DNA of 64,000 nt from Galerina marginata (Eukaryota > Basidiomycota > Agaricomycetes > Agaricales > Galerinaceae). A program made the translations under genes and the position numbers. Location: assembly GCA_023014335.1 (NCBI GenBank), contig JAECYW010000029.1:124001-188000 (forward strand). Reading direction: 5' to 3'. Each line of letters opens with the position of its first letter. Positions within the stretch are counted from its first letter, which is position 1. The notes beneath the pieces are model-generated. The model was not told where the DNA came from, made no database searches, and saw only the letters and a list, made by a program, of their open reading frames with translations. Below are positions 2,169 to 59,712 of the stretch, in pieces.

Positions 2169-2235
2169 AATGTATGCCGTTGAATCCGTCGCCAAACCGA
2201 ACTGGAGTAGCTCAAGTTTTTCCTACTTTCGGGAC
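2169..2235 (-). pseudogene. Remnant of the WD40 gene 3' end
   Basis: This short stretch matches the last codons, stop and first 3' bases of the WD40/membrane gene at 35406-37180 and its copy at 48792-50566, read here on the + strand. It includes the segment encoding the conserved C-terminal SVAKLE, now altered. It marks the left boundary of the inverted repeat block that follows. About 95 bp present between the WD40 stop and the next module in the 48.6-48.8 kb copy are missing here. Confidence 0.65.
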
Positions 2236-3295
2236 CGCTGTGCCTGATTTTCTTGGGGGCTCTCGACAAGAACCGACAGGCAGCATGAGTTCTATCGAGC
2301 AGCGCGGTTTGTTTTCGGGGAGAAGATTTTTTGAAGACGGTGCGAGGGTTGGAAGTCGACCGGTTTTTGGCGGGAGGTCGATCATTGATTTGGGACGCCT
2401 GTGAAGACTTTGTCACAGGTGATCTTGCAGGCCTTTGAAAGAGAGTGGTTTTCAAAATATATTGAACGCTGAACCTCAGGCTCAGTAACTTGCTCGGTAA
2501 TGAGGGATCGATGGCAGAAGCTGGAGACGACGCTTGACATATCGCAGAACTAGAAGGAGGTAGCGCGTCCGCTGCTTGGTGTGAGTTCAGTAGGCAGCTA
2601 AGTACCTATGGGTTGTTTGATGCAGTAGGATCTACAGCAACGTTCTGGCATGCGCTATAAGCAGGTCGTCCACAAGATATAAATTAAGTTGATTGGGATC
2701 AACAGTTGCCTCCCTTGTCGTGTTGTTTGAGCAAATCTAAGCGTGACAACGCAAATAAGAAAACGAATAAATGAAGAAAACGATCTTACCGTCGAACGGC
2801 AAAATGAGCAAACCGCGTGTCCTCTCTCTATTGACTATGTCCATGATATTGTCTAAAGCTGGAATGGCCATGAGCTTCCTCCTGCTTCATGGCCCTACGA
2901 AACCAGTCCTCCTGAGCTACCAGCACCATCAGGCTCCGGGTGTGCTAGTTCAAGGTTAGGTCCGCCAGGCTTGATCGGAGGTGTTCTCTTTAGTAGCATG
3001 ACGTTCGGGGGTCGGGGTCGCATATGTCGGTGGCTTCCGCAACTACAGTACGCGATATGTAGGGGGTTCAAAATGAACTCGAAGGACGACGTAGAAGGCG
3101 CGTTAGTAGCGTGAGGAAACCGTTTTCTTGGGCTAATGGCCATGCGAGTGCAGTCGAACAACCCGTTGCTAGCCAAAGAAAAGAGCTTCGAACGGCAATG
3201 GGCATTGCAGAAATCCAGGAAGGACCACAGCAACGTTTCCGTGCTAGCGATTCAACCGGCTCCATAGCAGCCTCTCAGCGTTAGCGGATTAAGCA
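2236..3295 (-). repeat. Module Y' of the chimeric repeat family (inverted copy)
   Basis: Inverted copy of 47700-48680. It contains the segment encoding VPDFLGGSRQEP on the + strand. On the minus strand it contains DLLKQ-type codons after an intron-like polypyrimidine tract (about 2690-2790), the EPDGAGSSGGLVS segment (about 2895-2930) and the MEPVESLARKR segment near 3265. The same EP-GAGSSGGL module recurs at 7208-7545, 27070-27306 and 38618-38962. No intact reading frame spans it. It is probably a decayed captured gene or a non-autonomous part of the transposon family, and I cannot name the source. Confidence 0.6.
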
Positions 3296-3329
3296 TCATT
3301 CTGTAGCACCCGCTCCTTTGAAATTGTGA

Positions 3330-3692
3330 CGACATTTGGAGCAAGCACGCGGTCCGAAAAAAAACGTTCTTGCCGAACGTTCAACCTTTCCCCTAATCTC
3401 TTTGAAGGTTGGAGGAAATTATATCGTTTCTGGCAATTTTTATGTCTTGAAAATAGGTCACCGAACACATGCAAAACTGCTAGGAAAGAACAAGAAGCAG
3501 TTTGCTTGGAAGGAAATCCTTTCAGGAATAACCGACGGCAAGATAGTGCACCTAAAAGACCGCACAATGACTGCTAACGGCTTCCATCCACAATGGTGGA
3601 AGAAAGGGGCACTGGAAATGCCCTCTAGCTTTCCTCCTGCCGTCTCAGGGGTTTTCATGCAGGAAACCGGCGTTTGCACCCTAAACAGCTAA
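3330..3692 (+). pseudogene. Degenerate copy of the HPQWW small-protein family
   Basis: The + strand frame encodes FPLIS, KVGGNY, HLKDRTM and NGFHPQWWKKGALEMPSSF. These match the intact small gene at 18050-18469 and another copy at 47335-47660 (-). The reading continues to a stop near 3692. It lacks the N-terminal region and the GDFHV segment seen in the intact gene. It lies antisense to, and directly abuts, the RPB1 fragment at 3681. The same junction occurs at 47330. Function unknown. Confidence 0.6.
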
Positions 3693-5870
3693 CGAGGGCG
3701 TCTTGAAGTTGAGCTGCCGTTCCACTAAATTCTCAAAGGATTCGCGGATCGTCACACCAGACACGGCTTTCATACAGTTATGAATAGCATCTTTAATCAT
3801 CTGAACCACGTTCGCCTTCCACGCGGCAATGTGTTGGGTGATGTATGACATAGTTGCAGAGTCGGCAATAATATCGCCAATGCTGAAGTCGTTATGGAAG
3901 AGCCAGAAATTATCGACCATCTGGATGCCAATAAACGATTGGCGAGTGGCGTCAGGTCCCTTTGCACAGAACATGACAGGCACTAAACCACCCTGCGACG
4001 CTCTAACGGTCTTCTTCCCGACGATTCCAAATATCAGCTCGCCGCCATTCTCAATTAAAATACCGTCGTCAAAAATGGGAGTAAATGATTTTGGGTCTGG
4101 CGCACGGTGAATGTTGATACCACGGGGAATGGTCAAGCTGAGGATTTGCTTTCCTGCCCACAGAGGCTCGGCTTGAGGCCGTCCGACGATCCAGCCATAC
4201 TGAAGGAAAGCGTCAGCACGCTTGTTATAATGAGGATTGATTCGTTTTCAGGTGTCCCGAACTACATATCTTGTGCCTGGGTATGTCGTCGGGCGGTTTC
4301 CAACCAGTTCTTGAATATATGCGGTGTTACTGGAAAGGGGTTAGATCGAAGACTAGACCGAAGAGTAAATAGAATGGTACCTCTCTCAGGACAAGTTAAG
4401 TTCATGGCTATCGTGTCCGGTACACCAACTTCGTCCAGATCCATTCCAGTCTGGCGTACTCGTCTGAGAGGCCCAGGAGATGAAAATCATGATCCGACAT
4501 CTTTTTCAAGACAGTAAGCCTCAGAAGGGGTGACGAGCCTCTTATCAGGCTGCCACGACTTAACTTCCTGTATGAAGGTAAGTTAATACTATCCGGTAAA
4601 ACGAAGACAATACTAACGTCATCGCCATCCTTCGTCTTCTTGTACTGCACGAAAAGCTTCAGGCCTTCCTTCCTGACCTGAGGTGGACTGTGCCCACAGC
4701 CGCCGTCACCCTTTTTTGCCTCCTTAACCTCTGGATCCGCACCTTCTTCCTTGGGCTCGTCAGGCTCGCAAATCGTCTTCGTCTTATAATGAGCCCAAAC
4801 AGCCGCCATCCGGTTCTTGGGATCACGGATATGACGAATCTTCTCCGCAAAATTCGGGTCCGACTTAATACACGAAAACATGAAGTGGAAAGAGAAGTCC
4901 ATGAGGGTTTCAAGTCGGATATGCAAATAAAAGCATCAGCATGAGGTGTCTACGGGATACGATATCTGAGGCAACAAATTCAACAATACAGGGGGCAAGA
5001 GACATCGAGCAACAGTGCAGGGCCTTCTCACACGCATCCGGTACTGCGTCACAGTAGAGAGCGGTTGGCCAAATTCCATCTATACAACACATGACCCTTG
5101 ACAGTACACGTATGTTTATTTTTTTTTCCGCACTACTCGTTCAGCCCCCCATTTCACCACACAGCCTCGTGGCCAACCGTACGCCGCGACGGGTGCAATG
5201 GGTCGACACAGCGATCAAGCGACCGAAACACGCACCACATGACCCCCCCGTCATGGGCGAAAGAATGCCTTCAATTGTCATTGTCAAGGGGTTTGGGGTT
5301 CCCGATGGGATGTGGAGAGAGCCCCAGAAAATTGAGATGGTGGGGTGCGAAACAAGTAGAGGAAAGTAAACAATGCAACTCACGGTGTCGGCTTTCAGCT
5401 TTCCGCAATTGACACATATACTCTCCAAAATCTTCTTTACTTTCATGAGGAAACCTTTATAGCACACAATATCGATCAGTGCCCACTTGAGCAATTGCAG
5501 TAAGCAACACACCTGGATGGAACACAGGCCTCGCCAACTCGATATAACCAACATGACCAGGATATTCCGACATTCCTCGCTTGAAATTCCGGTCGATAGT
5601 GCCCAAACCTGGGTCCATCAGACCACCTGAGTAGCTTCGTCCATATCCTCTGGATGTTTGATTTTGGCAACGGAGATGGCTTTCTATGAGTCAGAAAAGG
5701 CTGTTTGTAAGCATTTCTAGGGCCGTGATAAAATTCATAAAAGAAAACGCACGATCTCCTCCGGTGAAAGAATACCAAACTGAACCTCTGGAAAGGGCTT
5801 AGATCAATGACTAGAACGAAGAACAAATAGAATAGTACCTCTCTCAGGATAAGTTAAGCTCATGACTATG
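3681..5870 (-). pseudogene. RPB1: RPB1 fragment block A (rearranged, intron-containing)
   Basis: Read on the minus strand this is a series of RNA polymerase II largest-subunit segments. First come NLTYPER-like codons fused by an intron to the N-terminal EVQFGILSPEE, then ELARP-type and GFLMKVKKILES with CVNCGKLKAD. Next come SDPNFAEKIRHIRDPKNRM through GLSDEYAR (about 4890-4460), then LDEVGVP (about 4440), and [16 protein letters not shown] through LVERQLN (about 4127-3710). It ends in KTPSLAV from a much more distal part of RPB1. Introns are still recognisable, so this is DNA-level capture and not retroposition. Stops, frameshifts and large internal deletions rule out a working subunit. Confidence 0.85.
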
Positions 5871-6990
5871 GTCTTCGGTGAAGCAGCGTCTCAGCGACCA
5901 GCGGCGTCGTGATGGTGGGGGTATCGCAGACTTTAGCTGGCCATCCTGCTGCTTCAATATCGATTCGCTGGCGCGGGGTCAGACCTTGATTTCCGCTAAA
6001 AGTTCGAAAGATCTTGTTCTCCTCAATTCACCGTCATTGCCCGAGATTCCAATTTTAGTTATTGTCGCGGTGTTGTCATCGACCTTCGCCTAATCTCCCT
6101 CGTCGCTGCTGCTACTGGTCGCATTGACTTCTCGAATGCCCTTGTGAGGAAGTCAATGACGCGGAGCATTTCCCCCCTGAAGGGACCTATGACTTCCCAG
6201 TCGCGATCGACGTAGTAGTACTTGCTGCAAAGCCCTGCGATTTCAGTCCACCAATGCCACCAGCGCCTTCGGGCTCCGGAATAGCTAAGTTGGTTCACCA
6301 GGCTCGACCGGGGCAGACTTCTCGGCGTCCGAATTGACTTCCTCCACTAAGAATTTTGAGAAGCCGAAGCGGGGCTTCACAAGTCGCTCGAGCGTCATTC
6401 AAATTGTAAGAAAACTTGATTCTAAGAAGTCGGAATACAGCAGCGTGCCAGCGATAGCGATTTGGCCCAGTCCGATGCAAAACCCAGTGGCGATACCGTG
6501 CACAACCTGGATGACAGAGGAATGAGCAGCGGGTGATCGCGCTACTCCTCTGCTAATTCTACGACTCAGATCTGGTCTTGAGGCAGTGAGGCGAGGTCGA
6601 GGGTTGAGCTTGACATGCTTGACATGCAAATCGTGATGTTTAACTCTGTTTGGCTTTCCAAACTCCCGGTTACCCGTCGGAGCTCTTCTTCTAGATCTGC
6701 GCGTCTTGACCACTCCTTTCGCCAGATGGTGCAAGCAAGTGGTTCTGCATCGTTGTCTATTGGCTCTGAAGGGCCTGCTCCTTTCACCTTGGTGCGAGCT
6801 AGCAAAAAACCCCTCAGACTTCCCGTTACACATCCCATAGGCGAACCCAAATTATTGTCCTTACGCCGTAGGCCGATGACGCGGTAAGTGGACTGTGTGC
6901 CTCTCAGCGTGCGCTTATTCATCTTCAAACAGGGCCTTACGACCACTTTGAACAAATTGCGCAGCGAGATTTGTCTGCAAAGCCCAAATT
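5871..6990 (-). repeat. Module X of the repeat family (inverted copy)
   Basis: Near-identical inverted copy of 39150-40290 and 56740-57850. On the minus strand it begins at an intron-like 3' end (CTAAC branch motif, then a CAG acceptor). It then encodes FKVVVRPCLKMNKRTLRG and continues to DLASLPQDQI (6955-6566), and on to an overlapping frame with RGVARSPAAHSSVIQ and the LSYSGA-RRWWHWW segment. No domain is recognised. It lies directly upstream of the RPB1 N-terminal segment, an arrangement shared with 39.2 and 56.8 kb. Confidence 0.7.
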
Positions 6991-7009
6991 GTTAGTGCTC
7001 TCTATTCAT

Positions 7010-7940
7010 TTTTTTCAAAACTCAACTAAGCTTCGAATGTCTCTGAATCAAGTGGTTATATGCGGCGCCTTCGTCGTTGAACTGCCATTGCGAGCAGTGC
7101 AGACTTCATTCTGGAGTTTCCAGAACGACGCTTAGTCCACCAACGCTGAGACGCTGCCGTAGATCTACCTATGGAGCCGGTTGAATCGCTAGCACGGAAA
7201 CGTCGCTGTGGTCCTTCCCCCCATCTGGATTGACTACACTTTATGGACTCTCGATTTCTGCAATGCTCATTGCCGTTTGAACCCCTTCACTCTGGCTAAC
7301 AACAGAACTTGGACTGCACTCGTATGGCCATTAGCCCGAGCACTTGGTTTCATGTTGTTCATTTCGAATTCCCAACATGTCGCGTGCCCGCATGTGCTAC
7401 CTCAACCTCCGACGTCATGCTGCCCAAGAGAGCGCTTTCGATCAAGCCTGGTGGACCTAACCTTGACCTAGCACATCCGGAGCCTCATGGTGCTGGTAGC
7501 TCAGGAGGGCTGGTTCCGCAGGGTCAGGAACCTCATGCACGCTGAATCTGATTTCGCTGCAAATCGTCTCGTCAACGGCTTCCTCTTCCTCAACTACTGT
7601 TTACCGCCTGGGTCGGCTATATCATACTAGACCGTCGTCATCGACGACGACTGTGCCATCGTGCCTTCCAGCAGTGATCGGCGACTCTAATTCATCCTCT
7701 GCGAGTGGTCAACAGCAACGCTCATTCTTCGTCTCCCTGTCTGTGGTTACTCAGATCATCGACTCGGAGAGTCAAACTGTATCAACGGCCGTTGAGTTTG
7801 GAGCAGTCGAATCCAACCTTCTGAGGAGGTTATTCCAATTCGGAATATTCGCAATCCGTCATCCTTCCCACGGATACGTGGTCTATGGGCTGAATGTCTG
7901 TCTTCAGCAATTTGCCGCTTCGTGTCATTTTCTTATAAGA
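7010..7940 (+). repeat. Modules Y and Z upstream of a Tnp2 fragment
   Basis: Module Y (about 7150-7545) encodes NAHCR-type, KPGGPNLDLAHPEPHGAG and SSGGLVPQGQ segments. Module Z (about 7653-7943) encodes GDSNSSSASGQQQ, VTQIIDSESQTV and LLRRLFQFGIF. The same order X(-), Y(+), Z(+), Tnp2(+) is seen at 26.3-31.8 kb and, inverted, at 37.2-39.6 kb. These modules therefore belong to the 5' part of the transposon or were captured before it spread. Frames are broken between segments. Confidence 0.65.
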
Positions 7941-9258
7941 TGACAGACCACCACTTTCGCCCCATCCTGAAGGGGTGAACCCGGTCATCCAACTGATAGT
8001 GTTTACCATTGTGGTTTTGCAGATCGTCTCGAAGGTCCCTAGATCTGGATGCCATTTCGTTCTGGAAATGATGGGCTATGTTCTCCGACTCGCTCTGCTC
8101 GGATCTGAAGCTGAAATTACACCTCAAACAGCAAAATTGTTAAGTGATCTTCTAGTTGACTCTGAATCATACTCGATGGAAAAACCATAATCTATGCTGT
8201 TTTCCCGCACCCTAGCTGCCATCGTACATACAAGCCGATATACAAGCGAGGCTGCCCGATAGCAGAGCACCCAAACCGCTACAGTTACAAGGGATTTCCG
8301 AATAGCCCGTCCTGCGGTGCGGTTCTTACAAGACCTCGGATCATCAAGGATATTGAAATCCAGGTTCCCATCAAACCCTTCGTCTCTTTCGACTTTAAAG
8401 ATTGGTTTGCAGCGCTGTGTTCGCGTCCCGGCTATGAAGATCTCATGGATGGGGCATGGGCAAAGGCAAATGCAAATCGAACGGAGGAAATGGGAGATAT
8501 ATTCGATGGCGACTTCCTCCGTAATTTCGTGGGTCCTGACGGGAAGAAGTTATACATGGACGGCGATGGGGAAGGTCGTTATGTCTTCTGCCTTTGCGTA
8601 GACTTTTTCAATCCTCATATGAATAAGCAAGCGGGGAAGAAAGTTTCCATCGGGATTATATCGCTCGCTTGCCTCAATCTTCCCCTTAGCAAACGTTCCA
8701 AGTCGGAAAACATGTTCCTCGCTGGCATATTCCCTGGTCCGGTTGAACCACCTTTGAACTTGCTCAACCCTTACCTTACAGCGATCGTGGACGATTTGAT
8801 GGAATTCTGGAACGCCGGAGTTCGCTTTTCACGTACCTGCAAATGTCCAAATGGTCATGTCATGCGTTGTGCCCTTGTTGCTGTTGTCTCTGACCTTCCT
8901 GCGGCTCGGAAGACGGCCGGATTTGCATCGTTTCATCATCAACACTTCTGCTCTATTTGCCACTGCACCAAATTTCAAGAGGGCAAGGAAAATACGAACT
9001 ATGAATCTTGGCGGAGCAGGACCAATGCCGAGTGTCGCGAGTTCTCCGATGCATTTGCCAGAGATCCTGATGCTGCATCCCAACATGCCGTTTTCCAGGC
9101 CAGTGGTATTCGTTATTCTGAATTCTCGCGCCTTCCGTATTTTGACTTGGCTAAGTGTATTGTGGTTGATGCCATGCACAACCTCTTCCTGGGCCTCGTC
9201 AAAGATATTTTTCATGGTATCATTGGAATTGGCAGAGCCAGGACAGTGGAAGGCTCTG
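7931..9258 (+). pseudogene. Tnp2-type (CACTA) transposase pseudogene, 5'-deleted
   Basis: Closely matches exon 2 of the intact transposase gene (28778-30117). The first exon is missing. The sequence resumes at the end of intron 1 (7930s) directly after module Z. A one-base deletion after HFRPILKG and a short deletion near 8165 shift the frame. From 8445 the frame is open and retains [15 protein letters not shown]-like [18 protein letters not shown] and [12 protein letters not shown]. At about 9258 it runs in frame into ACC1 sequence. Confidence 0.85.
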
Positions 9259-9800
9259 TTTCAGCATCTTTGCAATATCTCGACTTCCGTTCAATTACAA
9301 ATGTTTGGGGTTACTTTTCCGTCAGCACAGCCCGCGGATTGCATGAGTTTGCGGATTTCCAGTTTGGCCTTATCTTCGACGGTGAGAAGGGAGGGGAGAG
9401 CCGAAAGAATATGACTGTCGGCCTGAAGGAACTGAGACTTTGAATGACTGTCAAGTACCTCATCAAACTTCTGGAGCTGGAGGCCTTCAAAAAGAACACC
9501 ATGACCAGTGGATGGCTGGATTTTCCCATTAATAACAAACCCACCGGTGGCGCTGCGCCCCGGCACAACTTCAGCTGTCATTTGCGGTGCTGTCACAAAA
9601 GCATACCTGGCCTTTGAAGCATGGTCCTCCAGTGGCCGGACCAAAGTGCCCCACTGGTTGCCATCGGCCTACTCCTCTGCGAAACACGTGCTTGATCCCG
9701 CTACTCCTCGCAGCGTTAATATGAGATACAATCCCATGGATCCCTTTGCTAGCAGCCGTGGATGCGCGAAAGGCTACAGTACCAAACTCCTCTGCGAAAC
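9258..9800 (+). pseudogene. ACC1: ACC1 fragment fused to transposase
   Basis: From 9258 the reading frame of the transposase pseudogene continues into acetyl-CoA carboxylase sequence between the biotin-carboxylase and biotinyl domains: [42 protein letters not shown] stop at 9441-9443 is followed in the same frame by VKYLIKLLELEAFKKNTM. A frameshift then leads to AVICGAVTKAYLAFEAW codons around 9570-9620. Similarity fades by about 9650-9800. It matches blocks at 43075 (+) and 25230 (-). Confidence 0.8.
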
Positions 9801-18469: not shown

Positions 18470-18834
18470 GCTCCCCCAATTTATATATATGTCTGTATGG
18501 GAACTGAAACATCTACTAGCTAAGCGGCATTGATGCATCCTTGAGCAGTTCAAACTTCAAAGGGAGGGACACAGCCTCAGAAAGCAGCCCTACTTACTGT
18601 CTTGCCAGTCACTGCAACTAGCTTGTAGGCCAGTGCAATGCATGGTGCATATGAGTCCACTTCCACTTTCTTTTTTATTCACCCTTCCTTCTTCTTATGG
18701 AGATTTACTCATGGAATATAAATTTAAATACTATACATGCTCCATCCAATTATCTGAGGCCAGCAAACCTAGAGGAACATATAATGTATGCCAAAGTTCC
18801 AATAAGGTGGAGAACCTTCCAAATGCACAGCATC
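18470..18834. other. No supported gene
   Basis: Starts with a short TA-rich run (about 18481-18490). No coding sequence is convincing before the RPB1 fragment that begins near 18835. Confidence 0.4.
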
Positions 18835-19675
18835 AACCATGTAGGCCGGGTTGAGGTCACTTGGTTTGCGACGATTGACGTGAAAGATCTAGATAGCGTT
18901 CTCGACAATGCAGTAGAGATTGACAGGAAGATAGTAGGGCTGGTTGGTGGGCACTCAGGGAAAAACAAACTCGCAAAGGAGTTGGCGATCTTCCACCAAG
19001 CGGGCATATTCCTCATCCAGCTTCATTGAAATTTGAGGGAACTGTCGTCAATGCCAACGCACAAGACACCGGGGAGGAAGCCGCCGGCTGGATCTGCGAC
19101 ATCTAGACGGTAATTATGTTCGAATTCCCTGTCGTTGAAGTGGAATGTCTTGATAGTTTGCTTCTCAATGAAGGCACTGTCTATTACGTCTCACCATATA
19201 CAAACTGGATGGGATGGCCGAGGGAATTTCGGACGATGCCGTTGTAGCAAACCATGACGTCCTCCAGAGCTTGCACTAGTCGACGTTGGATATAGCCAGT
19301 TTCAGCGGTCTTGACAGCAGTATCAAGGAAACCTTCACGACCTGCCATCGCATGGAAGAAGAATTCCTTGGGAGTCAGGCCACGAAGCTATGAATTCTCG
19401 ACAAGTCCACGCAACTCTGGACTGAGGTCGTCTTTAGTGAAACAGTGTTACTGGAAAGGGGTTAGATCAAAGACTAGACCGAAGTGTAAATAGAATGGTA
19501 CCTCTGTCAGGATAAGTCAAGTTCATGGCTATCGTCTCCGGCACACCAACTTCGTCCAGATCCATTCCGGTTTGGCGTACTCGTCTGAGAGGCACAGGAG
19601 ATGAAGATCGTGATCCGACATCTTTTGAAAACAGTGTAAACCTCAGAAGAGGCGCACTGACGAACAACGAAGAAA
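18835..19675 (-). pseudogene. RPB1: RPB1 fragment block B
   Basis: On the minus strand: SSEVYTVFKR (about 19660-19625), a frameshifted region, [20 protein letters not shown] (about 19560-19505) and the intron that follows this exon in the other copies. It is then fused near 19445 to [65 protein letters not shown] and PAYMVDAV. Several stops and short deletions are visible. The exon join skips several hundred residues of normal RPB1. It follows a partial module X upstream. Confidence 0.8.
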
Positions 19676-22105: not shown

Positions 22106-22535
22106 TGAGATCTTCGTAGCCGGGACGCGAAACCAGCGCTTGTAAGAACCGTACCGCAGGACGGGCTATTCGGAAATCCCTTGTAACTGCAGCGGTTTGG
22201 GTGCTCTGCTATCGGGCGGCCTCGCTTGTATGTATGATGGCAGCTAGGGTGCGAGCAAAGAGCCTAGATCGTGGTTTTTCCATCGAGTTCAAATTGCCTT
22301 GTGGCTGATTCAGGGTCAACTGGAAGATCACTTAACAATTGTGTTGTTTGAGGTGTAATTTCAGCTTCAGATCCGAGCAGAGCGAGTCGGAGAACACAGC
22401 CCATCATTTCCAGAACGAAATGGCATCCAGATCTAGGGACCTTCGAGACGATCTGCAAACCCACAATGGTAAACACTATCAGTTGGATGACCGGGTTCAC
22501 CCCTTCAGGATGGGGCGAAAGTGGTGGTCTGTCAT
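22106..22535 (-). pseudogene. Tnp2-type transposase fragment
   Basis: Minus strand, starting exactly at the end of transposase intron 1 (ATGACAG acceptor) and encoding HHFRPILKG-like, NPVIQLIVFTIVGLQIVSK, CHFVLEMMGCVLRLAL and SATRQFELDGKTTI. An internal deletion then leads to RPGYEDLMD. It is joined upstream to RPB1 (KVKKILES) and downstream to ACC1 (YKGFDAVVS). Confidence 0.85.
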
Positions 22536-38990: not shown

Positions 38991-39119
38991 CGGCTCCATA
39001 GGTAGATCTACGGCAGCGTCTCAGCGTTGGTGGACTAAGCGTCGTTCTGGAAACTCCAGAATGAAGTCTGCACTGCTCGCAATGGCAGTTCAACGACGAA
39101 GGCGCCGCATATAACCACT

Positions 39120-42989: not shown

Positions 42990-43948
42990 TGCGCCTCTCT
43001 CGGCGCGGTTCGCCTTTGCCCATATCTCCGTCCTCGCTGTGCGCCAGGAAAACAGGCTTCAAACCCACATCGGGACCTTTGCATTATCTCAACTTCCGTT
43101 CGGGTACAAATGTTTGGGCTTACCTTTCCGTCAGCGCATCCAGTGGATTGCATGAATTTGCGGATTTCCAGTTTGGCCTTATCTTCGACGGTGAGAAGAG
43201 AGGGCACAACCGAAGGAATATGACTGTCGCTCTGAAGGAACTGAGCATCAAGTACCTTGACAAACTTCTGGAGCTGGAACACCATGACCAGTGGATGGCT
43301 GGATTATTCCATTAGCAACAAACTCACGAGAGGCGCTGCGCCCTTGCACGACTTCAGCCGTCGTTTACGGTGCTGTTACAAGGGCATACCGGCCATTGAA
43401 GATTGCTGGACAGAGTACGAACGCATTTTTGATAAAGGTCGAGCTCCTTTCTTAACACAGTATTTGGCATCGATTTTACATACGAGAATACTCGTTATTC
43501 TTTTACTGCTGCGCGGTCCTCATCCACTGTGGACTCTCTACGTCAACGGAGACAGTACAATGGGCGTTTTGACGGATGGCGGGTTACTCGTTGGTCTCGT
43601 TCTTTTGGATAGGAAGAGTTACTCCACACTCCACATACGGACGGAGGAAGTTGGCGCTCTTAGATTGATTGGTCGACGCCAGGACCTGCTTGATTACAGG
43701 AAAACGCCCCTTCTCAGCTCAGAAGTCCAAGTCTCGGGAAACTTATCGGATACTTTCTGGGCAGTGGAGATCATGTCAAGGCTGGCGATCAATACGCCAA
43801 AATTGAGGTAAGTCTTGCTTTAAATGTCGACTCGTCGGCTGGTTGAGCTGGTTGATGCCAGTGCTATTAGGTCGTGAAAACGTACATGCCACTTGTTACA
43901 TCTGAAGTGGGTGTTATCCAGTTGATCAAGCAACCTGGTGTCCGTGTA
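42990..43948 (+). pseudogene. ACC1: ACC1 fragment joined to RPB1
   Basis: Acetyl-CoA carboxylase sequence in shifting frames: [18 protein letters not shown] (43030s), [97 protein letters not shown], an intron (about 43809-43872), and VVKTYMPLVTSEVGVIQLIK QPGV just after the biotin-carrying lysine motif. At about 43948 the reading continues into RPB1 (SDPNFAEKV). The EVMKM biotinyl motif is degraded to VVKTY. Confidence 0.85.
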
Positions 43949-46900
43949 TCAAGTCGGACCCGAATTTTGCGGAGAAGGTTCGTCATATCCGTGATCCCAA
44001 GAACCGGATGGCGGCTGTTTGGGCTCATTATAAGACGAAGACGATTTGCGAGCCTGACGAGCGCAAGGAAGAAGGTGCATATCCAGAGGTTGAGGAGGCA
44101 AAAAAGGGTGACGGCGGCTGTGGGCACAGTCCACCTCAGGTCAGGAAGGAAGGCCTGAAGCTTTTCGTGCAGTATAAGAAGACGAAGGATGACGAAGACG
44201 TTAGTATTGTCTTCGTTTTACTGGATAATATTGACTTACCTTCATAGAGGAAGTTAAGTCGTGGCAGCCTGATAAGAGGCTCATCACCTCTTCTGAGGTT
44301 TACACTGTCTTCAAAAAGATGTCTGACCATGATCTTCATCTCCTGGGCCTCTCAGACGAGTACGCCAGACAGGAATGGATGGTTTTAACTGTCATGCCTG
44401 TTCATCCTCCTGTTTGTCCCAGTATCGCTGTAGATGATGGCGCCATGCAAAGTGAGGACGATTTGATGTACAAACTTGGGGATATCATCAAGGCATCCGC
44501 AAACGCCCGACGCTCTGAGCAAGAAGGAGCTCCGGCCGACGTTATCATCGAATTTGAACAACTGCTGCAAGTAAGTATCGCAGTGGCTTATCATTAGCCC
44601 TGGCTGACGGATACCCATAGTTTCACGTTGCCACTTACATGGACAACAATATTGCTGGTATTCCGCAGGCACTATAAGAGTCTGGTCGACCTGTGAAGGC
44701 TATTCGTGCCCAACTAAAGGGCAAAGAATGGCGTTTGCGTGGAAATGTGACGGGCAAACGTGTGGATTTCTCAGCACGAATGGTCACCATGGGCGATCCT
44801 AAGTTGGAACTGGACGAAGTTGGCGTGCCGAAGACCATAGCCATGAACTTAACTTATCCTGAGAGAGGTACCATTCTATTTATTCTTCGGTCTAGTCTTT
44901 GATCTAACCCCTTTCCAGTAACACCGTACGACATCGCATATCTTCAAGAGCTGGTTGGAAATGCCCGACGACATATCCAGGAGCAAGATATGTAGTTCGG
45001 GACACCAGCAAACGAACCAATCTTCGTTATAACTAGATCGTCGAAAGGCACCTCAAGGACGGAGGGTAAGCAATCTCCGAGTTTTTTTGAGACTCCGGAT
45101 TTTAATTTCCTTTGTAGTTTGGTACTGTTCAACCGTCAACCCTCTCTGCATAAGATGAGTATGATGAGCCATTGCGTCAAGCTTATGCCCTATTCCAGTA
45201 AGTGTCCAGGGGTTCGTGACTTTGTTTCCTTTGCTAATATTGTCACCATAGCCTTCTGCCTGAACCTGTCGGTGTAAGTTGACTGCAACAGCCACTTTGG
45301 CATGTTAATCATGAGGTTTAGAACACTGCCTTACAATGCCGCCTTCGACGGTGATGAAATGAACATGCAGTACGTCTTCTTGTAACCATGTTTATTGTGG
45401 AGATCTTCTAAATAATCCTTAGTGTGCCACAAAGCGAGGAAACTCGAGAAGAACTTAGCCAGATTGCATGGGTTGCCAGACAGGTTGGTTTGCCTGCATG
45501 TTTAAGTTGGGTCCTGCCTTGCTAACTGCAAAACACAGATTATTTCTCTCAAGCCAACAAACCCGTCATGGGTATTGTGCAAGATACTCTTTGAAGCATT
45601 TGAATGTTCACGCTTGTGATACCTTCTTGGACTGGAATCAAGTGCAAAATATCCTCTTGTGGGTCCCAGAATGGCACGGAGCCATTCTGATTCCTGCCGT
45701 CCTCAAGCCGAAGCCTCTGTGGGCAGGAAAGCAAATCCTCAATTTGACCATTCCCCGTGGTATCAACATCCGCCGTGCGCCAAGCCCCAAATCGTTTACT
45801 CCCATTTTTGACGACGGTATTTTGATCGAGAACGGCGAGCTGATATTTGGAATCGTCGGGAAGAAGAGCATTGGAGCGTCGCAGGGTGGTTTAGTGCCTG
45901 TCATGTTCTGTGAGAAGGGACCCGACGGCACTTGCCAATTGTTTACTGGCATCCAGATGGTCGATAATTTCTGGCTCTTCCATAACGACTTCAGCATTGG
46001 CGATACTATTGCCGACTCTGCAACTACGTCATACATCACCCAACACATTGCCGCGTGGAAGGCGAACGTGGCTCAGATGATTAACGATGCTATTCATGAC
46101 TGTATGAAAACTGTGTCTGGTGTGACGATCCGCGAATCCTTTGAGAATTTGGTGGAACGGCAGCTCAACTTGGCCCGTGTCATATGTGGTCAATATGCTC
46201 AAAAGCACTTCAAGGAGGACAACAATGTAAAGCAGATGGTGGTTGCCGATTCAAAGGGTTCATTCATCAACATTTCGCAAATGTCTGTCTTTGTTGGACA
46301 GCAGTCTGCCGAAGGTCGTCGTAACCCATTCGGCTTCCGTCATCGCATCCTACCGCACTTCACTAAAGACGACCTCAGTCCAGAGTCGCGTGGATTTGTC
46401 GAGAATCCATATCTTCGTGGCCTGACTCCGAATGAATTCTTCTTCCATGCTATGGCAGGTCGTGAAGGTCTCATTGACTGAAACTGGTTATATCGTCAAA
46501 GCTCTGGAGGACGTCGGTTTGCTACGACGGCATCGTCCGAAATTCCCTCGGCGGATCTCATCCAGTTTGTATATGGTGAAGACGGAATAGACAGCGCCTT
46601 CATTGAGAAGCAAAGTATCAAGACGTTCCACCTCAACGACAGGGAGTTCGGACATAATTACCGTCTAAATGTCGCAGACCCAGCCGGCGGCTTCCTCCCC
46701 GGTGTCTTGTGGGTTGGCATTGACGACAGTTCCCCAAACTCCTAGTGAAGCTGAATGAGGAATATGCCCGCTTGGTGGAAGATTGCCAACTCCTTTGCGA
46801 GTTTGTCTTCCCCCGAGTACCCACTAAACAGCCCACTATCTTCCTGTCGATCTCCACAGCGTTGTCCAGAACGCTATCCAGATCTTCCACGTCAATCCTC

Positions 46901-47321
46901 GCAAACCAAGTGACCTCAACCTGGCCTACATAGTCGATACTGTGCATGAGCTTGGCAAACAACTGGTTGTCGTCTGTGGCTATGACCATCTCAGCAAGGA
47001 GGCCCTGGAGAACTCGACACTGACCTTCAGGATGCTTCCTTTGCGTCCCGCTGCATTTTTGAGAAGTTCCATCTAACACGAGAAGCTTTTGATTGGGTGA
47101 TTGACGAGGTGGAGACAAAGTTTAACCAATGAGTCGTACACCCAGGAGAGTTATGTGGCACACTGGCTTCCCAGTCAATTGGAGAATCGGCCACCCAAAT
47201 GACGCCCAACACTTTCCGTTATGCTGGTGTCTCCAGTAAGAACGTCACCCTTGGTGTACCGCGTTCGAAGGAAATTATCAATGTCGCCACAAATATCAAG
47301 ACGCCCTCGTTAACTGTATAG
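43949..47321 (+). pseudogene. RPB1: RPB1 fragment block E (longest copy)
   Basis: The longest collinear RPB1 stretch: SDPNFAEKVRHIRDPKNRM, GGCGHSPPQVRKEGLKLFV, TSSEVYTVFKKMSDHDLHLL, an intron after EFEQLLQ, FHVATYMDNNIAGIPQAL (stop), [28 protein letters not shown] plus intron, [40 protein letters not shown] (45335-45365), [33 protein letters not shown] through [14 protein letters not shown] (45468-46481 open), [34 protein letters not shown] and [10 protein letters not shown]. Introns are retained. Stops at about 44677, 44992 and 46479, plus frameshifts, destroy it. The catalytic NADFDGD motif has Asp to Ala at 45341-45343. Confidence 0.9.
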
Positions 47322-47334
47322 GCCCTTATAGGGT

Positions 47335-47660
47335 TCAACCGCCGGTTTCCTGCATGAAAAACCCTGAGACGGCAGCAGGAAAGCTCGAGGGCATTTCCAA
47401 TGCCCCTTTCTTCCACCATTGTGGATGGAAGCTGTTAGCACTCATTGTGCGGTCTTTGGGGTGCACTCTCTTGCAGTCGCTTATTCCTGAAGTGATTTCC
47501 TTCCAAGCAAAACGCTTCTTGTTCTTTCCTAGCAGTTTTGCATATGTGCGGTAACCTGTTTTCAAGACATAAAAATTGCCAGAAACGATATAATTTCCTC
47601 CAACCTTCAAAGAGATTAGGAGAAAGAATTTTTTTTCCGGACCACGAGCTTGCTCTAAAT
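47335..47660 (-). pseudogene. HPQWW-family copy antisense to RPB1
   Basis: The minus strand encodes KKFFLLISLKVGGNY, VSGNFYVLKTGYRT, HPKDRTMSANSFHPQWW and KKGALEMPSSF. It abuts the end of RPB1 block E (KTPSLTV), just as 3330-3692 abuts block A. It lacks the start and GDFHV region of the 18050-18469 gene. Confidence 0.6.
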
Positions 47661-47699
47661 TATGGTTGTTACAATTTCAAAGGAGCGCGTGCTACACTT

Positions 47700-48740
47700 T
47701 GGAGATTGATGCTTAATCGCTAACGCTGAGAGGCTGCTATGGAGCCGGTTGAATCGCCAGCACGGAAACGTTGCTGTGGTCCTTCCTGGATTTCTGCAAT
47801 GCCCATTGCCGTTCGAAGCTCCTTACTTTGGCCAGCAACGGGTTGTTCGACTGCACTCGCATTAGCCCAAGAAAACGGTTTCCTCGCGCTACCAAGGCGC
47901 CTTCTACGTCGTCCTCCGAGTTCATTTTGAACCCCCCACACATCGCGTACTGTAGTTGCGGAAGCCACCGACATAGGCGACCCCGACCCCCGAACGTCAT
48001 GCTGCTGAAGAGAACGCTTCCGATCAAGCCTGGTGGACCTAGCCTTGACCTAGCACATCCGGAGCCTGATGGTGCTGGTAGCTCAGGCGGACTGGTTTCG
48101 CATGGCCATGAAGCAGGAGGAAGCTCATGGCCGCCCCAGCTTTGGACAATGGATATGGTCAATAGAGAGGACACGCTCATTTTGCCGCTCGACGGTAAGA
48201 TCGTTTTTCTTCATTTTTTTCGTTTTTTTGTTTACGTCGTCATGTTTAGATTTGCTCAAACAACACGACAAGGGAGGCGACTTTTGATTCCCAGACAGCT
48301 TAATTTATATCTTGTGGACGAGCTGGTCATAGCGCATGCCAGAACCGTTGCTGTAGATCCTGCTGCATCAAACAACCCATAGGTAGCTGCCTACTGAAGT
48401 CACACCAAGCAGCGGACGCGCTACCTCCTTCCACTTCTGCAATACCTCAAGCGTCGTCTCCAGCTTCTGACATCGATCCCTCATTACCGAGCAAGTTACT
48501 GAGCCCGATGTTCAGCGTTCAATATAATTTGAAAGCCACTCCCTTTCAACCCTCGCACCGCCTTCAAAAAATCCTCTCCCCGAAAACAAACCGCGTTGCT
48601 CGATAGAACTCGTGCTGCCTGTCGGTTCTTGTCGAGAGCCCCCGAGAAAATCAGGCACAGCGGTCCCGAAAACGCGCGCGGACGGGTATGCGGCGTGGGG
48701 AAAAGTCTCTCTTATGTTGTAGATTGAATTAAAGCTAACA
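47700..48740 (+). repeat. Module Y' (forward copy)
   Basis: Forward counterpart of 2236-3295: MEPVESPARKR (47739), RPPNVMLLKRTLPIKPGGPS, HPEPDGAGSSGGLVSHG (48050s), SWPPQLWTMDMVNREDT, an intron-like tract (about 48195-48250), DLLKQ-type codons, then 48500-48700 encoding (minus strand) VPDFLGGSRQEPTGS. It then runs into the 3' flank of the second WD40 gene. The frame is interrupted. The source gene is not recognised. Confidence 0.6.
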
Positions 48741-50891
48741 TTACATACAGGCTGATGTAGCAGCATTGTGGCGTAGGAAATAAAACTCGGGCTACTCCAG
48801 TTTGGCGACAGATTCAATGGCATCATCCTCAGAGTCCCGCAAAATATTCAGGGGCAGTGGTCTTGCAGTACGAATACTGCTTGCAGTCTGCTTCCCAAGC
48901 TGCATCAAAACGTCATGAGGAAGTTGCATCAGAACTTCGCGGGAAATCACCAGAGAGCCTTTAGCGGCTCCTTGAGTTGGTTCTTCACCTAGTGAGGTCT
49001 TGAATGGGTCGACTACCACCTTCTCCGCAACAGATCGCGCCTTTGTGGGTATCTGGGTCAAATCCTGGAGAAAGTGTGTCAGTTCCATCCAAAAGAATGA
49101 CATCTGGTAAGACCTTGCATAAACTTTTCAATGCTTGAAACCACGCTGGAGAGACAACCACCAAAACAATGTTCAAAAGCAGAAGAGCAACCACCAGGCC
49201 AACTTCTCCTCGCCTCTCGGTCTTACGCCTCTTCTGCAGTAGCGCACGCTGCGTCTATCCGTTACAGATCAATCGAACGGATAAACACTACATAGATATT
49301 GACTTGCCGGCTTTTCCCATACGCAGATGGACGATTTGTCGTCAGAGCTGCCTGTCATAATGAGGTGCCGATTCTCCGTGCTTGCTGTCTACAGAAAAAA
49401 AAATCTATCGACCGATTCGGAAAAATACTAAAAGTGTCTTACTATAGTCGCCTGTAAGAGAGTTGTTGGTTTTCCATGCATAAAGGTTTGCACGGGTTGC
49501 TGAGACGCTTTCAGATCGAAGAGATACACTTTGCCATGGTCACTGCCGCCGACAATCACAGTACCCTTCTCCCCAAACACGACCATTCTAACGAAATTTC
49601 TGCTATTCGGAACGTCGAAAGTATGGAGAGGTGTGGAGCGATGGATCGAATATACGTCGTAACCAGTTTTCATGTTGTCGACGACGATGTTTCTCTCAAA
49701 TTCATCCATGTCGATATTCCCACTGCTCAGCCAGTCAAATTGAGAGAGCACAAAGAAGAAAACATACATACATCGCAGACTTGAGGGTTTTGGTATGCTT
49801 GAGAGCCGCTGTCTGGGCATCACGACAAGTGCTGTCATTTCGTCAGTACGTGTGCTATGACTAACCGTTTTGAACGCTCACATTTCACCACTTTCAAGAG
49901 CATACACGAGGATATCTTCGCCTCTGTTGATGAAGCGAGCAGATCGGGGAATCGCCTCGTTCAACTCTACAGTCCACAAAGGCGACATATCTTAATATAG
50001 AAGAGATCAGTAAGAAGAACCAGCCATGTAGAGATTCGTTACCTTCTCCAACAAGTCGAGACATCTTAATTTTTCCGTGGTGGCTGGTCATGACGAGACG
50101 GAAATTAACGGGATCGAAGGCTAAGGTTTCAACACTGTCGCCGGAATTAAAAACTTGGGTATCCGATATTTCCACAAAACGGTCCTAGTAAAAAGTGAGA
50201 GTAATTAATTGGCCCGAAAGACTATTGCCGGCTAATGAGAGGACACACCCTTCTTTTTTGCCGCTTGTAGATTACAACACGCCCTCTGCCCGTCCCGACG
50301 GATAACAGACCACTGCCGGATACATTACCATCTAAACGTATCCAGTGCAAACAAGTGACTTGACCCCAATGGCCTGCCTTATCAATCAGAGTTTCTCTCA
50401 ACTCGAAGGAAGTGAGGTCCCAAATTCGAACGGTCTCGTCGTCACCTAAGCAGCATGAAGTCATGGCTCGGCACTATAAACCAGCAGAGGGCATACCGCC
50501 ACTAGCGAGCAGTTCTGCGTCTCCGACAACTGCGAAGCAATTGATTGGGCCGTGGTGGCTCTCCATTCTCGCAACGAGGCGGTATTTCTGTCGAGGAGAT
50601 GTGAAGTCATGTCAGTCAAATAAGTCAAACGGTGACAAAGGTCGAAACGAACATGGGCAGGAAGAAAAAGGCGATTCCAGTATCGTTGCAAGAACATTTC
50701 CATCACAAAATCGTCTGTTCTGTTGGGTTATTGATAAAGCGATTAGCACCGCGCAGTTTGCCTTGACCCAATCTGCTTTTTATATTATAAGTCGAGTCAC
50801 CTCGAGCGCAGCACTGGGTCCGCTATCTGCGACGGTGAACCCTGAAATGAACACCGTGAGGGCCACTCTTGAAGACCTAACGAGGGGGTAG
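48740..50891 (-). repeat. Right arm of 2.15-kb inverted repeat carrying the WD40 gene
   Basis: Inverted partner of 35081-37232. Differences seen by eye include one silent change (36478/49494), Gly to Glu near the C-terminus (37158/48814) and Glu to Lys in the RRETERR segment. Both copies stay open. Confidence 0.9.
48792..50566 (-). CDS. WD40-repeat protein with C-terminal membrane segment, copy 2
   Basis: Exact mirror of the gene at 35406-37180. Subtracting those positions from 85972 gives start 50566, stop 48792 and the same nine exons, including the GC-AG intron. The 450-residue product differs at about two or three positions (RRKTERR for RRETERR, AIESVAKLE for AIGSVAKLE). Splice sites and frame are kept, so it should be as functional as copy 1. 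The shared region includes about 325 bp upstream of the ATG, so expression may be similar. Its 3' flank runs into module Y'. Confidence 0.85.
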
Positions 50892-51557
50892 TTGGTCTAA
50901 TTATGACTCTGCGCGACACCATGGGAATCCTAAGTCGTACACGCAAGCCGCCCCTGACGAGGGCGCTGAACGCGTCAAGCGATACCCGAAACAGCGTCCT
51001 CGACAATCGGAAAGCGCATGTCTCGATGGGGACGTATCAGCGACTCCACAAGATGTTGGCCGAGTTACAGAAAGTGGTGGGTGTGTTGAATAGGATGTAC
51101 GCTGACGCTAGACAACCACCAGCCACGGAAATCCGGCATTAGATTCCGTCAATCCCCTTCGGCTACTCGACCTCCGCCCACAGGGAAGTTGAATAACGGT
51201 AAAGGAAAATTCGAAACTAACAAAACAATTCACTGAGAGTAATGAGGGCCATTAGCCTTAACAGGATTCGCGGCAGTGCCTCCACGCTAGCAATCAAGTG
51301 TAGACTTAGTTTGAGACTTTGTCCACAGGCGTGGGCAGCTGCCGCGTGTTTTCGGGCTCCGCGAGCCAACCAAACCGTCTGTTTCGTGCTTTGAAGGCCC
51401 GGAGGCCGGCGTCCTTGGGACTTTACTCACAAATTTGCATCCATCTCCAACAGGCAATCCCGCTGGGAAACCCAAACTACAGGGTTGCGAAGTCGAGTCA
51501 TGCATCGCCCAACCCGCTTGTCAAAGGCCACGATTCATCGGTTTCGCAGGAACATAA
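50892..51557 (+). other. Region between WD40 copy 2 and a GRPKSGGY-family fragment
   Basis: A short frame at 50903-51142 (+; MTLRDTMGILSRTRKPPL, YQRLHKMLAELQKVVG) is weakly gene-like and may be an exon of the downstream family. The rest shows no coding region. A GAAGTCGAGTCATGCATC stretch near 51490 also occurs at 35020, so the regions flanking the two WD40 copies are themselves related. Confidence 0.3.
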
Positions 51558-51932
51558 ATGGTCAATGAAATCTCGCGGAAGGCAGAACATCCAATGATCT
51601 CTAGGCACTGCCCACTAATTACCAACCGAATCTCTTTCGCCCCTAATGCGATTCCGCCTCCTCCAGTAATCACACCCAGGACTCATTTCGTCCTCGGACC
51701 CAGAGGACTGAAAGAGGGTGAAGGAGCGCCACCGAGCCGGGAACTTACTCCCTCAGTCGACGGCGTTTCAGTTTCCGATCCTACCGACCACCACACCGAC
51801 GACGGCGAATCCGAATTAACCAAACTATCTGAAACTTCCGATTCGGAACAGCAAGTGTTGGTCGCTTCAATGAAGAAGATTCCTAAGCCTTCCGGCGAAC
51901 CTGGGCGACCAAAGTCAGGCGGATACCAGTGA
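51558..51932 (+). pseudogene. GRPKSGGY-family gene fragment (right copy)
   Basis: ATG at 51558 (MVNEISRKAEHPMISRHCPL), then DDGESELTKLSETSDSEQ and KIPKPSGEPGRPKSGGYQ, ending at a stop at 51930-51932. I recall proteins in which a PKP-GEAGRP-SGGY motif is followed by a longer conserved region. That continuation is missing here, so the gene appears truncated or continues through an unseen intron. The left mirror copy is at 34520-34912. Confidence 0.5.
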
Positions 51933-56344: not shown

Positions 56345-57859
56345 ACTGCATATGTTGGGAGTTCGAAATGAACAACATGAAACCGGGCGCTTGAGCTAAT
56401 GGCAATACGAGTGCAGTCCAAGTTCCGTTGCTAGCCAGAGTGAAGAGGTTCGAACGGCAATGAGCATTGCAGAAATCGAGAGTCCATAAAGTGTAGTCAA
56501 TCCAGATGGGGGGAAGGACCACAGCGACGTTTCCGTGCTAGCGATTCAACCGGCTCCATAGGTAGATCTACGGCAGCGTCTCAGCGTTGGTGGACTAAGC
56601 GTCGTTCTGGAAACTCCAGAATGAAGTCTGCACTGCTCGCAATGGCAGTTCAACGACGAAGGCGCCGCATATAACCACTTGATTCAGAGACATTCGAAGC
56701 TTAGTTGAGTTTTGAAAAAAAATGAATAGAGAGCACTAACAATTTGGGCTTTGCAGACAAATCTCGCTGCGCAATTTGTTCAAAGTGGTCGTAAGGCCCT
56801 GTTTGAAGATGAATAAGCGCACGCTGAGAGGCACACAGTCCACTTACCGCGTCATCGGCCTACGGCGTAAGGACAATAATTTGGGTTCGCCTATGGGATG
56901 TGTAACGGGAAGTCTGAGGGGTTTTTTGCTAGCTCGCACCAAGGTGAAAGGAGCAGGCCCTTCAGAGCCAATAGACAACGACGCAGAACCACTTGCTTGC
57001 ACCATCTGGCGAAAGGAGTGGTCAAGACGCGCAGATCTAGAAGAAGAGCTCCGACGGGTAACCGGGAGTTTGGAAAGCCAAACAGAGTTAAACATCACGA
57101 TTTGCATGTCAAGCATGTCAAGCTCAACCCTCGACCTCGCCTCACTGCCTCAAGACCAGATCGGAGTCGTAGAATTAGCAGAGGAGTAGCGCGATCACCC
57201 GCTGCTCATTCCTCTGTCATCCAGGTTGTGCACGCGGTATCGCCACTGGGTTTTGCATCGGACTGGGCCAAATCGCTATCGCTGGCACGCTGCTGTATTC
57301 CGACTTCTTAGAATCAAGTTTTCTTACAATTTGAATGACGCTCGAGCGACTTGTGAAGCCCCGCTTCGGCTTCTCAAAATTCTTAGTGGAGGAAGTCAAT
57401 TCGGACGCCGAGAAGTCTGCCCCGGTCGAGCCTGGTGAACCAACTTAGCTATTCCGGAGCCCAAAGGCGCTGGTGGCATTGGTGGACTGAAATCGCAGGG
57501 CTTTGCAGCAAGTACTACTACGTCGATCGCGACTGGGAAGTCATAGGTCCCTTCAGGGGGGAAATGCTCCGCGTCATTGACTTCCTCACAAGGGCATTCG
57601 AGAAGTCAATGCGACCAGTAGCAGCAGCGACGAGGGAGATTAGGCGAAGGTCGATGACAACACCGCGACAATAACTAAAATTGGAATGTCGGGCAATGAC
57701 GGTGAATTGAGGAGAACAAGATCTTTCGAACTTTTAGCGGAAATCAAGGTCTGACCCCGCGCCAGCGAATCGATATTGAAGCAGCAGGATGGCCAGCTAA
57801 AGTCTGCGATACCCCCACCATCACGACGCCGCTGGTCGCTGAGACGCTGCTTCACCGAA
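56345..57859 (+). repeat. Truncated module Y and complete module X (right copy)
   Basis: 56345-56640 is the end of inverted module Y (NAHCRSNLFTLASNG on the minus strand). 56740-57855 is module X, nearly identical to 39180-40294, including the CTAAC...CAG intron end, MNKRTLRG to ELAEE (56815-57189) and DRDWEVIGPFRGEMLRVIDF. From 56450 it is the right copy of the 2.65-kb direct repeat. Confidence 0.75.
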
Positions 57860-59102
57860 GACCATAGTCATGAGCTTAACTTATCCTGAGAGAGGTACTA
57901 TTCTATTTGTTCTTCGTTCTAGTCATTGATCTAAGCCCTTTCCAGAGGTTCAGTTTGGTATTCTTTCACCGGAGGAGATCGTGCGTTTTCTTTTATGAAT
58001 TTCATCACGGCCCTAGAAATGCTTACAAACAGCCTTTTCTGACTCATAGAAAGCCATCTCCGTTGCCAAAATCAAACATCCAGAGGTCATGGACGAAGCT
58101 ACTCAGGTGGACTGATGGGCCCAGGTTTGGGCCCTATCGACCGGAATTTCAAGTGTCAAACCTGCGGCGAAGGGATGTCCGGAATGTCCTGGTCATTTTT
58201 GGTAATATCGAGTTGGCGAGGCCTATTTTCCATCCAGGTGTGTTGCTTACTATAACTTCTCAAGTGGGCACTGATCGATATTGTGTGCTATAAAGGTTTC
58301 ATCATGAAAGTAAAGAAGATTTTGGACAGTATACCTTCTTGGACTGTAATCACGTGCAAACATCCTCTTGTGGGTCCCAGAATGGCACGGCGCCATTCTG
58401 ATTTCTGCCGTCCTCAAGCCGAAGACTCTGTGGGCAGGAAAGCAAATCCTCAGCTTGACCATTCCCCGTGGTAAGTATCAACATCCACCGTGCGCCAGAC
58501 CCAAAATCGTTTACTCCCATTTTTGACGACGGTGTTTTGATCGAGAACGGCGAGCTGATATTTGGGATCGTCGAGAAGAAGACCGTTGGAGCGTCGCAGG
58601 GTGGTTTAGTGCCTGTCATGTTCTGTGAGAAGGGACCCGACGTCACTTGCCAATTGTTTACTGGCATCCAGATGGTCGATAATTTCTGGCTCTTCCATAA
58701 CGACTTCAGCATTGGCGATACTATTGCCGACTCTGCAACTACGTCATACATCACCCAACACATTGCCGCGTGGAAGGCGAACGTGGCTCAGATGATTAAC
58801 GATGCTATTCATGACTGTATGAAAGCTGTGTCTGGTATGACGATCCGCGAATCTTTTGAGAATTTGGTGGAACGGCAGCTCAACTTGGCTCGTGACATGT
58901 GTGGTCAATATGCTCAAAAGCACTTCAAGGAGGACAGCAATGTAAAGCAGATGGTGGTTGACGGTTCAAAGGGTTCATTCATCAACATTTCGCAAATGTC
59001 TGTCTGTGTTGGACAGCAGTCTGCCGAAGGTCGTCGTAACCCATTCGGCTTCCGTCATCGCATCCTACCGCACTTCACTAAAGACGACCTCAGTCCAGAG
59101 TC
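56450..59102 (+). repeat. Right copy of 2.65-kb direct repeat
   Basis: Matches 38890-41541. Beyond 59102 this copy continues with RPB1 sequence, while the left copy switches to module X. This copy therefore shows the uninterrupted order. Confidence 0.9.
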
Positions 59103-59712
59103 GCTTGGATTTGTCGAGAATTCATATCTTAGCGGCCTGACTCCCAAGGAATTCTTCTTCCATGCTATGGCAGGTTGTGAAGGTCTCATTGATACTGCTG
59201 TCAAGACCGCTGAAACTGGTTTATATCCAACGTCGACTAGTGAAAGCTCCGGAGGACGTCATGGTTTACTACGACGGCATGGTCCGAAATTCCCTCGGCG
59301 ATCTCATCCAGTTTGTATATGGTGAAGACGGAGTAGACAGTGCCTTCATTGAGAAACAAACTATTAAGACGTTCCACCTCAACGACAGGGAGTTCGAACA
59401 TAATTACCGTCTAGATGTTGCAGACCCAGCCGGCGGCTTCCTCCCCGGTGTCTTGTGGGTTGGCATTGACGACAGTTCCCTCAAACTCCTAGTGAAGCTG
59501 GAGGAGGAATATGCCCGCTTGGTGGAAGATCGCCAACTCCTTTGCGAGTTTGTCTTCCCCCAAGTACCCACTAAACAGCCCACTATCTTCCTGTCAATCT
59601 CCACTGTATTGTCACATCGTTCACGTCAATCGTCGCAAACCAAGTTACCTCAACCCGGCCTACATGGTCGATGCTGTGCATGAGCTTGCCACACAACTGG
59701 TTGTCTGCATCC
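57860..59712 (+). pseudogene. RPB1: RPB1 fragment block F
   Basis: Same as block D to 59102, then continuing: [40 protein letters not shown], a frameshift, [99 protein letters not shown], a deletion, NRRKPSYLNPAYMVDAVHEL and ATQLVV, ending near 59712. The deletion between the N-terminal part and the FLDWN region is shared with block D. 58468-59325 is open but ends after the frameshift. Confidence 0.85.

Follow-up and report, generated by a model that had tools for sequence, protein, structure and literature searches.

The 64,000-base window analysed here, bases 124001-188000 of contig C22 (JAECYW010000029.1; 670,646 bp) in the 69.3-Mb, 43-contig assembly of Galerina marginata, carries an array of broken copies of two essential host genes, RPB1 and ACC1, which are interspersed with pieces of a tnp2 transposase and with several repeated modules. 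A first-pass annotation, made from the letters alone, had described six RPB1 and four ACC1 blocks interleaved with transposase pieces and with modules termed X, Y and Z, and had read them as a mobile-repeat family built from two unlinked housekeeping genes. The blocks are real: all six and all four align to the native genes well beyond chance (E-values down to 0), at 83-89% (RPB1) and 76-91% (ACC1) DNA identity by piece, and the edges drawn earlier were off by 1-25 bases for RPB1 and by 3-177 bases for ACC1, the largest shifts being those at 9800 and 23591. The captured pieces are given below in window positions, with donor coordinates as positions within the native gene.

3706-5878, reverse strand: RPB1 piece, native 3530-4006, 2604-2879 and 774-2176, with a 91-bp ectopic piece (native 2627-2717) before 774
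18823-19652, reverse strand: RPB1 piece, native 2083-2176, 2604-2726 and 4194-4814
22533-22995, reverse strand: RPB1 piece, native 774-1175, with the 91-bp piece ahead
40294-41542, forward strand: RPB1 piece, the 91-bp piece followed by native 774-1173 and 3448-4223
43943-47320, forward strand: RPB1 piece, native 1738-5197 aligned in one piece, the longest in the window, with an intron and frame-breaking indels
57855-59705, forward strand: RPB1 piece, the 91-bp piece followed by native 774-1173 and 3448-4838
9261-9623, forward strand: ACC1 piece, native 2775-3148
20391-22098, reverse strand: ACC1 piece, native 5149-7095, internally deleted
23692-25267, reverse strand: ACC1 piece, native 2758-4282 and 4751-4862
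43053-43942, forward strand: ACC1 piece, native 2758-3683, joined without a gap to RPB1 1738 at 43942/43943

Domain searches of the open reading frames (ORFs) agree with these assignments. The Pfam families RNA_pol_Rpb1_3, 4, 5 and 6 exceed their cut-offs in at least one window ORF, with Rpb1_1 below its own, and ACCA_BT is above cut-off at 24463-25035 and below it at 43245-43811. The ACC1 piece at 23692-25267 also matches PDB entry 5csk, a yeast-type acetyl-CoA carboxylase (E 8.4e-5).

Both donors persist elsewhere in the genome and, as the first reading had supposed, are unlinked. The native RPB1 gene lies at C12:3898001-3906000, where open frames span MLGHQ to the heptads of the C-terminal domain and splicing is defined at the level of a coarse protein alignment; C7:50562-58570 is a 98% copy of it, and the native ACC1 gene lies on a different contig, at C5:407001-416500. 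The host is recognisable as an agaric mushroom from its native RPB1 protein, which across 500 residues shares 94-95% identity with the proteins of Psilocybe, Gymnopilus and Flammula. The large-subunit gene of RNA polymerase III (Pol III) likewise forms a 98.6% copy pair (C1:609001-617000 and C6:1976001-1984000). The two pairs suggest that the assembly contains sequence from both nuclear haplotypes in part, yet ACC1 was found once. The Pol III gene was rejected as a donor, since the C1 and C6 matches read as RPC1 from their ORFs and have only short stretches of 72-75% identity in common with the window.

Copying took place at the DNA level, as had been proposed from the retention of introns. 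The intron at native RPB1 2385-2419, recognised as a gap between exon alignments, is present in the copy at 43943-47320, fully aligned and 97% identical, and this rules out a retrocopy (processed pseudogene).

The pieces on C22 have common limits. Within C22:1-250000, all RPB1 pieces found fall inside native 774-5197 (~4.4 kb) and all ACC1 pieces inside native 2758-7096 (~4.3 kb). The 91-bp piece precedes ten of the ten C22 RPB1 pieces that start at 774, in one case in shortened form; two of these ten lie beyond 250 kb, and two twin pairs of an inverted duplication described below are included. The RPB1 end at 5197 recurs in four pieces (two of them twins), the ACC1 start at 2758 at five places (one a twin) and the ACC1 end at 7092-7096 in five (two of them twins). 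Furthermore, a 6-bp deletion is common to all seven aligned C22 RPB1 copies and is absent from native RPB1, from the stretch read on contig C13 and from nine of nine other agaric proteins compared. A tree of one 331-bp RPB1 stretch (14 sequences including three identical twins, with one shorter copy dropped and no outgroup) places the C22 copies in one group with a split support of 0.983. The common edges, filler and deletion show that the C22 copies descend from one founder for RPB1 and one for ACC1.

Among themselves the copies differ mainly by internal deletions. Counting repeats of a junction once, microhomology of at least 2 bp occurs at 11 of 23 junctions, compared with 15% among 5000 randomly made joins (p 2e-4); two pairs of junctions resemble one joint called slightly apart, and merging them leaves 10 of 21 (p 4e-4). 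Several mismatches flank some of the joints, so that single microhomology values are rough. Many joints fall inside native open frames, and indels of a length that is not a multiple of three are present in nine of nine copies analysed. Differences from the native gene amount to 6-13% at codon positions 1 and 2 and to 16-21% at position 3; the excess at position 3, a descriptive figure outside any formal neutrality test, is the contribution expected of silent change in the living gene. Exon shuffling by a transposon, as suggested in the first-pass annotation, finds no support as a functional process in view of the broken frames and the divergence at the first two codon positions. The copies analysed are frame-broken passengers that appear dead and do not resemble new genes. 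Mutation resembling repeat-induced point mutation was also considered and set aside: the copy at 43943-47320 displays only mild CpG decay, with C-to-T type changes at 63 of 391 CpG bases versus 76 of 1273 other C or G bases.

The captured pieces are embedded in the following repeated features.

38509-39964, forward strand: module X
6208-7650 (reverse), 25957-27405 (reverse), 41542-42315 (forward) and 56350-57525 (forward): further copies of X
39965-40293, forward strand: module Y, which separates X from the 91-bp RPB1 piece
5879-6207 (reverse), 22996-23327 (reverse) and 57526-57854 (forward): further copies of Y
42316-43052, forward strand: leader X2, between X and ACC1
47325-48549, forward strand: module Z, after RPB1 5197, with ~440 bp of inverted homology to X at 67%
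35087-37235, reverse strand: E3 repeat, left arm of a 2.15-kb inverted repeat, 99.6% identical to 48733-50885
48733-51926, forward strand: E3 repeat, of which 48733-50885 is the right arm
41542-64000, no strand assigned: part of one arm of the inverted duplication C22:165542-197254 / 206280-237996
8166-9260, forward strand: tnp2 transposase piece, cut at 9260/9261, where ACC1 starts
28025-31811, forward strand: longest tnp2 transposase region, with the tnp2 domain over cut-off in 28738-30498

Module X does not correspond to a known gene among the sequences compared: none of 26 candidate proteins is related to it, and its ORF at 41662-42228 has no Pfam match. A 131-bp relative at C8:1810841 does not advance its identity. 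One X copy contains a 169-bp insert (38340-38508) that neighbouring copies lack, with an overlap of ~3 bp at the empty site. Three short pieces of the second half of X2 (42749-43052) match C5:1083118-1083669 at 79-86%, and this place is perhaps a third captured host locus. A dispersed repeat of ~180 bp (48543-48725) has nine matches on other contigs at 79-84%.

On the scale of the contig, the two arms of the inverted duplication are 31.7 kb long, 99.95% alike and separated by a 9-kb spacer (C22:165542-237996), and other copies account for a large share of C22:35-250 kb. A duplication of such near-identity could be a misassembly and the contig itself a chimera. The mosaic junctions, however, recur in several diverged copies, which makes random misjoins an unlikely source, and we regard an assembly artefact as very improbable.

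Mapping of the whole assembly, with match counts that are lower bounds, places nearly the entire family in one region. For X, 49 of 50 matches lie on C22 at 27-281 kb, the other being a weak one on C8; for Y, 19 of 21, the remaining two being 40-bp matches; for X2, 15 of 18, with three short ones at C5:1083 kb; and for ACC1, 28 of 30, the remainder consisting of the native gene and a weak match. RPB1 is more widely represented, with 49 of 69 matches on C22, 12 on C13 and the rest comprising native RPB1, the Pol III genes and three short matches on C17. Because X, Y, X2 and ACC1 pieces are essentially limited to C22:27-281 kb, the family multiplied locally and not genome-wide; the repeated family proposed earlier stands, and its genome-wide mobility is without support. 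Linkage to the mating type was rejected as a cause of this confinement, as none of 31 STE3 matches lies on C22 (the homeodomain locus was outside this search).

The transposase assignments hold as well. PF02992 (tnp2), the transposase domain typical of CACTA/EnSpm-Plavaka elements, is over cut-off in two ORFs (E 4.6e-13 at 8166-9443 and E 3.2e-14 at 28738-30498), and PF18759 (cut-off 26.3) reaches 28.5 bits in one of them and 25.6 in the other. DUF4218 lies below cut-off at 30375-31031, and the ORFs at 28025-28732 and 31032-31811, which are without a Pfam transposase match, were assigned to the transposase region by position. Relatives of this transposase on C9, C24 and C17 are 75% identical and others 65-71%. 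In several copies tnp2 sits beside X and is oriented away from it, with the captured pieces on the other side of X and mostly in one sense; this divergent position of a CACTA/Plavaka-like tnp2 next to the block makes transposon-assisted capture likely.

One form that such assistance could have taken is a true Pack-type family, in which a non-autonomous CACTA/Plavaka-like element would hold RPB1 and ACC1 between its termini and would spread by local hopping driven by tnp2. Host gene pieces do lie inside the repeat, a tnp2 transposase is adjacent, and the inverted E3 arms (35087-37235 and 48733-50885) flank an 11.5-kb block that holds both RPB1 and ACC1 pieces. E3-like stretches of 67-69% identity also lie inverted on either side of a tnp2 and its neighbouring ORF on C24, and the two arrangements together suggest a large element. 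Against this, termini and 2-3 bp target-site duplications of the published kinds were not established: the inverted-repeat search of the window returned only the partial X/Z homology, with no clean termini, neither this homology nor the inverted E3 pair gave shared ends, and for the duplications the copy ends vary and the whole element has no clean empty site for comparison. X copies start at many different positions, and X is essentially confined to C22, in place of the dispersal expected of such a family. We therefore consider a Pack-type origin, the first mechanism named in the first-pass annotation, to be unlikely.

Its second suggestion, capture by a Helitron, appears hardly credible. Helitrons begin with TC at the 5' end and terminate in a hairpin and CTRR at the 3' end; such ends were outside our search. 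No Helitron protein (RepHel) was found by Pfam in 28 of the 38 window ORFs of at least 150 amino acids, the scan having covered neither the other ten nor shorter ORFs, and inverted duplications and internal deletions dominate the locus. Basidiomycete Helitrons are nevertheless reported to take up gene pieces, as in Pleurotus (PMC4289320).

The account that we consider probable combines repair-type capture into a tnp2 element with subsequent local segmental amplification and decay. A multi-gene DNA transposon of the tnp2 type (CACTA/Plavaka-like) would have acquired the ~4.4 kb of RPB1 and ~4.3 kb of ACC1, both without gene ends, by copying of host DNA during repair of a double-strand break in or beside the element, and the 91-bp RPB1 piece could represent templated filler from this event. 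The chimeric block, with tnp2 pointing away on one side of X and ACC1, RPB1 and Z following on the other, then multiplied within ~254 kb of a single contig through segmental duplication, frequently in inverted orientation, and its copies lost internal stretches at joints with more microhomology than random joins have. Low recombination may hold the cluster in one place.

Several observations weigh against this account. Neither element termini, terminal inverted repeats nor target-site duplications were established, and the variable starts of the X copies fit duplication by repair better than transposition. At 12 of the 23 junctions the microhomology is 0-1 bp, nine of them having none, and the copy at C22:189307 has only two odd indels, 16 bp apart, which may cancel. 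The capture step is inferred, and the chimera may also have originated without a transposon.

This latter possibility can be stated more fully: a large unstable region, such as a centromere or another poorly recombining tract, might have acquired host and transposon pieces through repair and then rearranged them. In its favour are the restriction to a single region, the inverted duplications, the microhomology and the pieces that end anywhere, and a second cluster of RPB1 pieces at C13:758957-904990 points the same way. This cluster occupies both strands, carries a private deletion (native 3884 to 4031) and lacks module X; among the scored candidates (37 of 37, 40 of 52 and 40 of 62, respectively) no X, tnp2 or Z match was found. 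What speaks against an unstable region without any role for a transposon is the recurrent order of tnp2, X and gene pieces, with X and gene pieces mostly in the same sense, which resembles the trace of a single element with its cargo. We consider this alternative rather improbable and retain capture into a tnp2 element as the preferred reading for C22.

The C13 cluster also bears on how often RPB1 was taken up. The stretch read there is without the 6-bp deletion and most of the amino-acid changes common to the C22 copies, and C13 pieces extend to native 5276 and 5373, past the C22 limit of 5197. Together with the absence of X, tnp2 and Z matches among the scored candidates, this indicates that RPB1 was most likely captured at least twice, on C22 and on C13. 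Alternatively, a single capture may have been followed by a very early split between C13 and C22, as the tree is without an outgroup. A grouping of C13 with native RPB1 was dropped for the same reason, since such a tree only puts C13 outside the C22 group. On C17, short colinear RPB1 pieces at 562051-562350 (native 5748-6230, comprising 5748-6088 and weaker ones) lie near the tnp2 relative at C17:568833-572114 and may represent a third capture. Only two genes were looked for, hence repeated capture is no proof that RPB1 is favoured.

We speculate that the region might be selfish or regulatory. In the native RPB1 span, 2059 of 4424 bases fall within perfect 21-mers that also occur in C22:1-250000; in the ACC1 span the figure is 807 of 4339. 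Copies are present on both strands, and all this would be compatible with the idea that sense and antisense pieces yield small RNAs acting on host RPB1 and ACC1, and that a hold on host transcription favoured repeated RPB1 capture (C22, C13, perhaps C17). We rate this idea as very unlikely.

Related systems share some of these features and differ in others. Plant Pack-TYPE and CACTA elements carry host gene pieces (PMC8903248, PMC1947982) and resemble the present family in DNA-level capture beside CACTA-class sequence and in having more than one gene per family; the G. marginata family differs in its mushroom host, its ~254-kb confinement, its lack of established termini and target-site duplications, and its copies broken by microhomology deletions. 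Fungal Plavaka/EnSpm (CMCT) transposons, found in Agaricales, combine a related transposase with extra cargo in the form of TET/JBP genes (PMC12730594); theirs is a dioxygenase gene between defined ends, whereas here dead RPB1 and ACC1 pieces lie between undefined ones. Pleurotus ostreatus Helitrons likewise are class-II elements of a mushroom that have captured host gene pieces (PMC4289320), but here inverted duplications are prominent and the ORFs scanned hold no rolling-circle protein. Among the open-licence papers listed on gene capture, none presents itself by title or abstract opening as a case of RPB1 or ACC1 fragments within a transposon of a mushroom; a search aimed at RPB1 gave one paper, which its abstract shows to be unrelated, and no search was aimed at ACC1.

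A further likeness is to a class of rearrangement and not of element. Segmental-duplication clusters that arise by microhomology-mediated repair consist of local and frequently inverted copies, with filler and with joints marked by microhomology, all of which recur here; the difference is that the unit on C22 consists of transposon sequence plus pieces of two essential genes.

Altogether, the locus offers a graded series of copies in a mushroom, each gene with a single founder, and lets capture, filler, inverted duplication and microhomology deletion be followed at single-base resolution. It also illustrates that essential genes can form a striking chimera without any exon shuffling. Of all the observations, the apparent second capture of RPB1, on a different contig, most deserves further attention.

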